Shown here: positions 27,577-30,147 of the stretch, one piece after another
How positions within the stretch are numbered: position 1 is the stretch's first letter
Layout: each line of letters begins with the position of its first letter
Source of the DNA: Candidatus Saccharimonadota bacterium
GTDB lineage: Bacteria; Patescibacteriota; Saccharimonadia; Saccharimonadales; UBA4665
Length of the DNA stretch: 64,000 nt
NCBI GenBank assembly: GCA_029288365.1
Contig: JARIHI010000005.1
Span: 1 to 64,000, forward strand
Direction of reading: 5' to 3'
Notes under the pieces: model-generated
The model's input: only the letters and a program-made list of their open reading frames with translations
Told to the model about the DNA's origin: nothing
The model's database searches: none
Translations under genes and position numbers: made by a program

Positions 27577-28062
27577 TTAAACTTGCAGTGTGTTTTGCGT
27601 ATAAAACGATCCGTATTCCAAACAATGATCTTCAATGAAGCGTAAAAATTTCTGAGCACTCTTTGGGCTAACCCAGCGTAACGCATAATCTCCCACACGC
27701 GTATGAAGCGTTATGGTTGCAAGCGGGCCGATCCTACCATAGGTTATACCACTCACTACGTCGTATGTTACCTCATCAGAGTTTGCGTAACCTGGTTTTT
27801 TATCAAGATAAATCATATGCCTGTCTGTAGCTGCCAACATTGCAAAACCATCTTTGCCATAACCAAATACCGCTGCTCTTATATGCTCATGCGGATGAAT
27901 GAGTTTATACAGATACTTAGTTTCCGCATTAAGCTTTGTGCCTAATAACGGCGCTCCTGCGTCCATAAGCTCCTGCCGAACACGTGTTTTAATACGGTTA
28001 CTATCCTCTTCTTGCGGGGACGCATCATTTGTATTTGCAGACATGTTATATGGTGAAGTCAT
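27577..28062 (-). CDS. Soluble bacterial PH-domain protein
   Basis: 161 residues. After a polar N-terminus (1-45) comes the bPH pattern: LIHPHEHIRAAVFGYGKDGFAMLAATDRHMIYLDKKPG, then DEVTYDVVSGITYGRIGPLATITLHTRVGDYALRWV. This is the YokE-like bPH_3 family, cytoplasmic, function unknown. The ATG follows AGGAGG. The start faces the PPOX gene divergently across 135 bp that holds a Crp-type operator (28132-28147), so it may share that control. Confidence 0.8.
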   Translation of the reverse strand: MTSPYNMSANTNDASPQEEDSNRIKTRVRQELMDAGAPLLGTKLNAETKYLYKLIHPHEHIRAAVFGYGKDGFAMLAATDRHMIYLDKKPGYANSDEVTYDVVSGITYGRIGPLATITLHTRVGDYALRWVSPKSAQKFLRFIEDHCLEYGSFYTQNTLQV

Positions 28063-28131
28063 ATAGCTTCCTCCTAAATATATCTAATCACGCTCCCGGT
28101 CTTCTGACAGTAAGCAAGTTCACGCATTGAC

Positions 28132-28174
28132 GGTGAGCAACGTCACAGCCATAGTAAACTACGAAGCGTATAGT
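28132..28174 (+). promoter_or_regulatory. Crp/Fnr-type operator and class II promoter of the PPOX gene
   Basis: GGTGA (28132-28136), 6 nt, TCACA (28143-28147) matches the CRP pattern TGTGA-N6-TCACA except at the first base. A TATAGT -10 box lies at 28169-28174 with no recognisable -35. The predicted start (about 28181) puts the operator centre at -41.5, the exact class II activator position. Confidence 0.6.
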
Positions 28175-28197
28175 TGAAATTGCCAAAAGGAGAAACT

Positions 28198-28635
28198 ATG
28201 GCCGTAGACCAAAAAGAACAACTTTTTACCTTTCTAAGAAATCATCCCACCGCAATAATTGCTACGGTCAATGAGCACAACCAGCCGCATACGAGCGTTA
28301 TTTACTACGCCATGAGCAAAGCAGGCAATGTCTTGTTTATCACCAAAGAAGCAACGCAAAAACATACTAATATACAACACAATGCTCATGTTGCGTTGCT
28401 TGTGTACGATTCCCAAAATCGCATAGTTGTTCAGATCACCGGCGAAGCCACGTTGCTCACCGATATCAAAGCGAGTGAGACCGCTTTTTCAGAAGTATTG
28501 AGAGCCTCCATGGAAGACAGCCGTGACTACCCCTTTTCGCCGTTAAGTAAATTGCGCGCTGGGGAATATGTCGCCTATGAGATTAAACATCCGCATATAC
28601 GCAAGACAGAATATGCTCACCAATCCAGCAGCTAG
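28198..28635 (+). CDS. Pyridoxamine 5'-phosphate oxidase-family flavin protein
   Basis: 145 residues from ATG 28198 behind AAGGAGAAACT. PPOX split-barrel pattern: LRNHPTAIIATVNEHNQPHTSVIYYAMSKAGNVLFITKEATQKHTNIQHNAHVALLVYDSQNRIVVQITGEATLL. Such small proteins bind FMN, F420 or heme and act as redox enzymes. The true pyridoxine oxidase C-terminal signature is missing, so it is not PdxH. The divergent layout with a Crp-type operator and the nearby flavodoxin suggest a redox regulon. Confidence 0.85.
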   Translation: MAVDQKEQLFTFLRNHPTAIIATVNEHNQPHTSVIYYAMSKAGNVLFITKEATQKHTNIQHNAHVALLVYDSQNRIVVQITGEATLLTDIKASETAFSEVLRASMEDSRDYPFSPLSKLRAGEYVAYEIKHPHIRKTEYAHQSSS

Positions 28636-28643
28636 CCGAAATA

Positions 28644-29285
28644 TTACGTTTTCGCAATTTGTTTTTCTAAAGCAACCATGTCATTAATAACGATGCTGCT
28701 TCGGGTAACAGTCACTAGCTTGGTAGCTTTTAACTTGCTCATTTCCCTATTTACCGTCTCTCGTGACAATCCAGCTCGTGCGCCTAGATCTTTTTCGCTC
28801 AGCTGAATGGTCAACTTGCCAGCTTCTTCTCGCCCAAATCGCCGAGCCTGGGTAATCAATTCGTATATAAGCCGGTCTTTAGCGGTGCTTGTCATGAGAT
28901 GGACTACTCTGCCTAAAACTCCATCTAGCCCCCGATAGACACGAGTAAGTAAATCATATACAACGTCCGGATTAGCTTTAAAAAAATCTACTGTTTCTTG
29001 TACCGGTGCCTGATAAAGCTCTACGGCAGTGTCTGCCTCAAAAAAATATTTGTTAGGTATACCAGTCATTACAGGCAGCATGGGGAAAAAGGCTGGAGGT
29101 TTAAACAAGTTCACAATCACCTCATCACCCCGATATGAAATGACGTACTGCTTCACTACGCCAGACTTTAAATAATATAAATACTCTGGCATATCGTCTG
29201 CAAAAATAAAAATTTGTCCCTTTGTATAACGGCGAAGTTTGTGCTTGCTAAAATATTGCTCAACCTTATCTTGGGTTTCCGACAT
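28644..29285 (-). CDS. Crp/Fnr-family transcription regulator
   Basis: 213 residues. An N-terminal cupin sensor domain (15-115) is followed by a dimer helix and a winged HTH, SEKDLGARAGLSRETVNREMSKLK, near 163-186. The recognition helix keeps the Arg-Glu and later Arg that in CRP read GTGA half-sites, unlike FNR's E-S-R. The phosphate-binding cassette of CRP (GE...RSA) is absent, so cAMP binding is unlikely. There is no cysteine in the protein, ruling out an FNR-type iron-sulfur cluster. The signal is unknown. Start behind AAGGAG. It converges with the PPOX gene and is divergent from the flavodoxin gene. Confidence 0.92.
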   Translation of the reverse strand: MSETQDKVEQYFSKHKLRRYTKGQIFIFADDMPEYLYYLKSGVVKQYVISYRGDEVIVNLFKPPAFFPMLPVMTGIPNKYFFEADTAVELYQAPVQETVDFFKANPDVVYDLLTRVYRGLDGVLGRVVHLMTSTAKDRLIYELITQARRFGREEAGKLTIQLSEKDLGARAGLSRETVNREMSKLKATKLVTVTRSSIVINDMVALEKQIAKT

Positions 29286-29302
29286 ACGTTCTCCTTGCCT
29301 TG

Positions 29303-29365
29303 ACTATATAAGGTGAGGCTTGATCAATCAATGAATCTTTGCTCTTCAAGGTGAGAAATATCACC
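29303..29365. promoter_or_regulatory. Divergent control region with Crp-type operator
   Basis: GGTGA (29350-29354), 6 nt, TCACC (29361-29365) is a perfect palindrome of the Crp class. For the regulator (minus), TTGATT (29326-29331), 17-nt spacer and TATAGT (29303-29308) form a promoter; the operator centre is at about -61.5. For the flavodoxin gene (plus), a TTTTAT/TATATC region near 29388-29396 puts the operator at about -42 to -45. A related direct repeat (GAAATATC..CCCTTT) occurs at 29355 and 29379. Confidence 0.6.
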
Positions 29366-29439
29366 CTTTATGTATAGGAAATATCCCTTTTATATCTCTG
29401 TTGTCATGTCACACTGCATATGAGGCAGGAGTGTTTTGC

Positions 29440-29943
29440 ATGAAGATACTTGTAGCAGCCGCTAGCAAACACGGCGCAACCCACGAAATAGCACAGTTTA
29501 TTGCCAAAACTTTAGCCGAACAAGGGCATAAAGCCACATATAGTGATATCGAGAAATTACCGAAACTTTCCCATTATGATGCAGTAGTTCTGGGTAGTGC
29601 TGTGTATATGGGAAAGTGGCTCAGAACTGCCCGGATGTACGTAAAAGTAAATCATAAACAACTTTCCTCTTTGCCTGTTTGGATTTTTAGCAGTGGACCC
29701 ATAGATAAGCAAACGACCATTAGCAAAGATGAAGGTGTTGTCATTAATGAAATTTTACGTGACACCAAAGCCCGAGAACACAAGGTATTTTCCGGCAAAC
29801 TGTACAAACACAATTTGAGTATATTTGAACGAGCCGTTATGCGAGCCGTGCGCGCCCAAGAGGGAGATTTTCGCAACTGGGTCGAAATTACTGCTTGGGC
29901 AGTTGATATCGCTAACGAGCTCAAGATGGAAGAAAGTACATAA
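29440..29943 (+). CDS. Flavodoxin-like protein (HemG/protoporphyrinogen oxidase type)
   Basis: 167 residues from ATG 29440 behind AGGAG. The FMN phosphate loop is AAASKHGATHEIAQFIAK near 7-24, followed by YDAVVLGSAVYMGKWL and SLPVWIFSSGPIDKQ. The spacing matches HemG/flavodoxin_5, which transfers electrons, for example in heme synthesis. No heme genes are in the window, so it may serve as a general redox carrier. It shares the Crp-type control region with the regulator gene; the small membrane gene behind it follows by 21 bp. Confidence 0.85.
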   Translation: MKILVAAASKHGATHEIAQFIAKTLAEQGHKATYSDIEKLPKLSHYDAVVLGSAVYMGKWLRTARMYVKVNHKQLSSLPVWIFSSGPIDKQTTISKDEGVVINEILRDTKAREHKVFSGKLYKHNLSIFERAVMRAVRAQEGDFRNWVEITAWAVDIANELKMEEST

Positions 29944-29964: not shown

Positions 29965-30147
29965 ATGGCACAAAACAAAAGATCTTCGAATGGTGGCGGC
30001 AACGCCGTTTATTTTTTCGGATTCATCGGTGCGCTGGTGTATTACATCCAACAAGCCGAAGGGTTCTGGGTAATTATACTAGCCATCTTAAAAGCTTTTG
30101 TGTGGCCAGCATTTGTAGTGTATGATCTTCTCAAGTTTATAACGTAA
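29965..30147 (+). CDS. Small conserved-type membrane protein
   Basis: 60 residues. A polar Ser/Gly/Asn-rich start (MAQNKRSSNGGGN) precedes two hydrophobic stretches, AVYFFGFIGALVYYIQ and FWVIILAILKAFVWPAFVVYDLL. A Shine-Dalgarno (GGGGAAAGAGG) lies upstream. The sequence pattern (GFIGALVYYIQ...KAFVWPAFVVYDLLKF) is one I associate with short proteins common in Saccharibacteria. It probably shares the flavodoxin transcript. Confidence 0.7.
   Translation: MAQNKRSSNGGGNAVYFFGFIGALVYYIQQAEGFWVIILAILKAFVWPAFVVYDLLKFIT

Follow-up and report, generated by a model that had tools for sequence, protein, structure and literature searches.

A predicted CRP-type class-II activator and its GTGA-N6-TCAC operators at flavin-protein genes in a Saccharibacteria genome

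SdrP acts without cAMP, recognizes a TGTRA-N6-TYACA site at a class-II position and serves stress and redox genes (PMC8465061, PMC12937710). In a rhizosphere Saccharibacteria genome, five FNR-family regulators have been counted and O2 sensing has been suggested (PMC6031116). In our literature searches, we came across no account of a regulon or operator belonging to a Saccharibacteria or Patescibacteria Crp/Fnr regulator. Here, we analyzed a stretch of 64,000 nucleotides (the window) from a Saccharibacteria (Patescibacteria) MAG, whose 908 kb genome encodes four Crp/Fnr paralogues. Judging from sequence, we consider it likely that the paralogue in the window is a CRP-type class-II activator of a PPOX gene and an autoregulator, with probable control of a flavodoxin, which would make a small local regulon of flavin proteins.

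The genes are arranged in the order HD-domain protein (minus strand), bPH-domain protein (minus), PPOX (plus), Crp/Fnr-type regulator (minus), flavodoxin-like protein (plus) and small membrane protein (plus). The bPH gene (27577-28062, minus strand; PF14470, 30.4 bits) is divergent from the gene for a PPOX-class flavin-binding split-barrel protein (PNPOx_N; 28198-28635, plus strand; Pfam PF01243, 64.6 bits), with a common intergenic region. The regulator gene (28644-29285, minus strand) encodes 213 amino acids. The flavodoxin-like protein (Flavodoxin_5, HemG-like fold; 29440-29943, plus strand) matches PF12724 at 93.7 bits; HemG identity was rejected, the HemG NCBIfam model scoring 48.9 bits, below its cut-off of 142. 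The small membrane protein (29965-30147, plus strand), which matched no Pfam family, is probably co-transcribed with the flavodoxin. It is present at 8 of 66 orthologous loci and adjoins a flavodoxin in L097.

The regulator matches PF00027 (51.8 bits) and PF13545 (48.9 bits), both above cut-off, giving a cNMP-type sensor domain and a Crp-type HTH of the CRP/FNR superfamily. Its AlphaFold model (pLDDT 93) has the CRP fold, with VIA-align Z scores of 24 for cAMP-bound Vfr and CRP (22-24 for CRP), 21.3 for DdrI and 21.2 for SdrP. The CRP-like recognition helix SRETVNREM (residues 174-182; 28740-28766, minus strand) reported in the first-pass annotation is present, and its RETxxR pattern is conserved, with RET in 65/65 orthologues (100%) and the following R in 63/65 (97%). 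In an alignment-based comparison, the CRP contacts E72, R82, S83, T127, and S128 correspond to M69, K79 (variable), Y80, V123, and L124. No class III adenylate cyclase (PF00211; the search covered class III only) was found in 93 genomes of the family. With all five contact positions replaced and this enzyme lacking, cAMP is unlikely to be the signal. Iron-sulfur sensing of the FNR type was also rejected: the window protein has no cysteine, and the 65 orthologues, 21 of which wholly lack cysteine, have no conserved cysteine cluster. The earlier claim that the regulator lacks both cAMP-binding residues and cysteines is thus borne out.

Two predicted palindromic operators flank this gene, at the coordinates first given for them. 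The main one, GGTGAGCAACGTCACA (28132-28147), lies 70 bp upstream of the divergent bPH gene, and the other, GGTGAGAAATATCACC (29350-29365), lies between the regulator and the flavodoxin. When the 64 kb were scored with a matrix derived from 32 relatives' sites, with the window left out, they ranked first and second. The outer bases of the window sites are G/C, which occur in only ~5% of the relatives' half-sites. From the genomic density of the motif, simple arithmetic gives a chance of ~4e-6 that the two short intergenic regions on either side of one regulator would each contain a site.

The genome scan proposed in the first-pass annotation returned one exact copy of GGTGA-N6-TCACC in the 908 kb, and the core GTGA-N6-TCAC was not enriched (13 copies, against 12 for a reversed control). 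The genome was covered by pattern searches together with the stretches surrounding each match. A scan of this genome alone would therefore not validate the motif, and genome-wide enrichment was dropped as evidence. Most of the remaining 11 copies fall within coding or ribosomal RNA-like sequence; of the three or four intergenic ones, none has a good -10 box at class-II distance. The genome holds a single copy of the full class-II pattern, GTGA-N6-TCAC-N22/23-TANNNT, and it is the one at PPOX.

Comparison with relatives was more informative. The sample comprised 66 distinct orthologous loci of the regulator, and at each the 250 bases preceding the regulator gene were compared for 1792 palindromes (256 half-sites at 7 spacings). 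Of these, GTGA-N6-TCAC showed the strongest enrichment, found at 14 loci against 0.21 expected, so that a TGTGA-N6-TCACA type operator is recovered by comparison; the GTGA/TCAC palindrome was found at no other spacing from 0 to 14 upstream of the regulator. In the flanks of these loci, noncoding copies outnumbered coding ones 34 to 2 (density ratio ~60), and control palindromes showed no similar noncoding bias there. The spacers all differ between sites, which points to retained function and not to recent common descent. The regulator has an orthologue in 28 of the 93 family genomes, and the Saccharibacteria genome YM_S32 carries one (L117). The same operator design recurs in dozens of related genomes, so that an activator of neighbouring flavin-protein genes is a solid prediction. 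Flavodoxin orthologues were too rare among relatives for a similar footprint (2/99). Some regulator orthologues (L078, L094, L096, and L102) sit on contigs labelled Nomurabacteria, Levybacteria, and Daviesbacteria, reflecting either lateral transfer or binning error.

The promoter register is the second line of comparative evidence; calls were made with a simple custom -10 matrix. At PPOX, the operator centre (28139.5) lies 29 positions from the hexamer TATAGT (28169-28174, plus strand), which has no -35 box and predicts a start near 28181. The operator thereby falls at exactly -41.5, agreeing with the first-pass annotation and with the position of SdrP-type operators, the -10 box itself being a prediction. 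Among relatives, TATAAT-like hexamers gene-ward of the site centre occur at offset 29 in 17 cases and at offset 30 in 8, against ~1.9 per other offset. A -10 box thus stands at centre+29/30 in 25/51 site-to-gene directions, with a -35 match of at most 3/6 in 24 of those 25. After reduction to one locus per 60%-identity group, 18/37 non-redundant loci retain this register, against 2.7 ± 1.6 (maximum 8) in 1000 dinucleotide shuffles. Because this register at -41.5 recurs across loci without a -35 box, the regulator clade most likely consists of class-II activators, with PPOX as a textbook case. On the bPH side, a possible -10 box, TATATT (28077-28082, minus strand), is weak and would put the operators of the common intergenic region at the non-canonical positions -69.5 and -46.5.

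One of these operators had been overlooked in the first-pass annotation. An imperfect site, AGTAAGCAAGTTCACG (28109-28124), lies exactly 23 bp upstream of the main operator as its tandem partner, centred at about -64.5 of PPOX. Among relatives, nine site pairs have this spacing of 23 bp, where other distances average 0.28 pairs each. L177 repeats the tandem of the window, with its proximal site at -41.5. L162, which belongs to a different family within the order, combines a pair of exact sites at the 23-bp spacing with the same arrangement of divergent bPH and PPOX genes with a convergent regulator; this pair has no clear -10 box at class-II distance. Sites, DNA code, promoter register, and their conservation are direct results of these computations.

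PPOX, bPH, and the regulator belong together as a conserved module. In 20/66 loci, the regulator has a PPOX or bPH gene nearby, usually in the tail-to-tail orientation seen in the window. The two are fused in one protein in L086 (3352-4260), and in L062 and L065 both queries match one ORF, apparently another fusion; such fusions imply a functional link between the two divergent genes of the window. The bPH gene as a regulon partner had also escaped earlier notice. A site with at most one mismatch is held by 24/28 PPOX/bPH operon upstream regions, the background of this count being non-neutral, since many neighbours are themselves targets. Near orthologues, class-II sites also precede genes for VKOR, dihydroorotate dehydrogenase, ribonucleotide reductase, cytochrome b, a fumarase-type lyase, acetate kinase with phosphoketolase, and a PspC-like protein with flavodoxin (acetate kinase, phosphoketolase, and PspC being named by eye from sequence). 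We infer from this list a theme of redox and energy metabolism, which is the sole basis of the label "redox". Of the small redox regulon originally proposed, the small regulon is supported, while the redox response derives solely from the target genes. Upstream of PPOX at six tail-to-tail loci (L076, L079, L089, L095, L098, and L135), we also observed an asymmetric TTGA-N6-TCAC, an FNR-like half joined to a CRP-like half, at a similar distance from the PPOX start.

On the other side of the regulator, the operator centre (29357.5) lies 49 positions from TATAGT on the minus strand (29308-29303), at the class-I position -61.5 of the regulator promoter. This supports the local autoregulation claimed earlier, which may be positive or negative, and the -61.5 position is plausible for it. 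The autoregulatory site varies in position among relatives, some lying at about -33, which suits repression. The same palindrome had been placed at -42 to -45 for the flavodoxin. This is possible, but the -10 candidates are poor: TTTTAT (+30) and TATATC (+33), within 29388-29396 on the plus strand, score only 1.8 and 2.1 and give -42.5 to -45.5.

The genome has three further Crp/Fnr paralogues, which the first-pass annotation did not consider; two carry RETxxR helices (RETTSRE and RETTGRE), and none adjoins a GTGA site. The class-II GTGA motif is about twofold enriched both in relatives with an orthologue (44 vs 21) and in those without (75 vs 36), so the presence of the orthologue was rejected as the specific cause. 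The enrichment without an orthologue suggests that paralogues use the same DNA code and, together with the RETxxR helices, makes cross-talk possible. Several relatives' paralogue genes have their own GTGA-N6-TCAC nearby, often as GTGA(C/G)TATTTTCAC (G013:C2:57250, G009:C47:7172, G005:C5:60411, G030:C27:8824, and G003:C22:9034), as expected if the code is common to paralogues within a genome. A different paralogue group lies within ~5-15 kb of a cytochrome-oxidase subunit I gene in many relatives (G005:C2, G017:C5, G014:C2, G020:C44, G032:C2, G019:C3, G026:C39, and others); the oxidase contig (C5) of the window's genome carries no Crp/Fnr paralogue. The joint occurrence of orthologue and terminal oxidase is uninformative, since 83/93 family genomes have a COX1-type gene.

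Against this background, other accounts of the sites can be weighed. That the palindromes are chance matches would explain why the core motif shows no genome-wide excess, but the footprint, flank placement, -10 register, matrix ranking, PPOX/bPH sites, and 23-bp pairs all contradict it; this reading is barely credible, and on comparative grounds the two window palindromes are not chance. It is quite improbable, though less so, that the sites mainly serve one of the other three paralogues instead of the neighbouring regulator. The two matching helices and the equal motif enrichment of paralogue-only genomes would fit this, but throughout the 66-locus sample the sites are concentrated around this orthologue, and in the window's genome the paralogues stand apart from GTGA sites. 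We find it rather doubtful that the 29350 site serves mainly for autorepression of the regulator and that the flavodoxin lies outside the regulon. No good -10 box serves the flavodoxin at class-II distance, and some relatives have a site that overlaps the regulator promoter in its -35 region; yet the only good regulator -10 box in the window sets the site at an activating position, and in L085 a flavodoxin sits behind a class-II site.

The signal allows more than one reading. The first-pass annotation held it to be new or unknown; its newness is not established, since an effector-free regulator like SdrP or Deinococcus DdrI also fits, and an SdrP-like mode and a new ligand are equally likely. 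In its strict form, with the protein always in the DNA-binding state and output set by its own abundance through autoregulation, effector independence is a serious candidate that falls somewhat short of an even chance. It would account for the replaced cAMP contacts, including the variable K79, and for the missing class III cyclase; the hydrophobic residues at 127/128 resemble T127L/I alleles, which are common in CRP* (PMC2743635). SdrP itself is an effector-free class-II activator of oxidative-stress genes with a near-identical consensus (PMC8465061, PMC12937710), and the model fits SdrP and DdrI. However, it fits cAMP-bound Vfr and CRP somewhat better, and residues of the pocket region conserved among orthologues (N59, N78, Y80, and FFPM) could bind something. 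A wider proposal builds on this pocket: the clade, spread through Saccharibacteria and some other Patescibacteria MAGs, might sense redox or flavin/heme status through pocket chemistry (FFPM...N..YF), using neither cyclic nucleotide nor iron-sulfur, and control a flavoprotein, quinone, and fermentation regulon via -41.5 sites and 23-bp tandems. We regard this as unlikely.

Under the favoured reading of a local class-II activator, the product of 28644-29285 would be a CRP-type dimer reading GTGA-N6-TCAC. Bound at -41.5 of the PPOX promoter, it would recruit RNA polymerase, with help from the weaker operator that lies one dimer (23 bp) farther upstream. From 29350-29365, it would control its own gene, probably as an activator acting at -61.5, and probably also the divergent flavodoxin operon. 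The outcome would be a very small local regulon of flavin proteins, with activity set by some ligand or simply by the amount of the regulator, and by neither cAMP nor an FNR iron-sulfur cluster. Binding, activation, and the redox role are what we infer here from sequence. For a subfamily in 28/93 family genomes, the analysis supplies a concrete operator, a promoter register, and a list of targets, and makes it possible to test in vitro how these reduced genomes, the majority with a terminal oxidase gene, respond.

Compared with known systems, the regulator shares with FNR the superfamily and a proposed role with redox genes, but differs in lacking the cysteine cluster, in its RExxxR helix, and in a GTGA site instead of TTGAT. 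NtcA is the best sequence match among solved structures; NtcA identity was rejected, at 53 bits against a cut-off of 244.95. The DNA site of NtcA also differs from that of the regulator. E. coli CRP is alike in fold, RExxxR recognition helix, TGTGA-N6-TCACA site, and class-II and class-I positions. It differs in its cAMP contacts, all five of which are replaced here. No class III adenylate cyclase was found in this family, and the CRP equivalog was rejected at 48.8 bits against 266. For the FNR-family regulators of the rhizosphere genome, no sites, targets or subfamily were described (PMC6031116). SdrP (TTHA1359) of Thermus thermophilus is similar in its CRP/FNR fold, near-identical site, class-II position, and independence of cAMP (PMC8465061, PMC12937710), but it is only a distant sequence relative with a larger regulon in a free-living thermophile. 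Its effector independence may extend to the present regulator. The proposed mechanism is ordinary CRP biology and, as far as our searches reached, new as a described case in Saccharibacteria.
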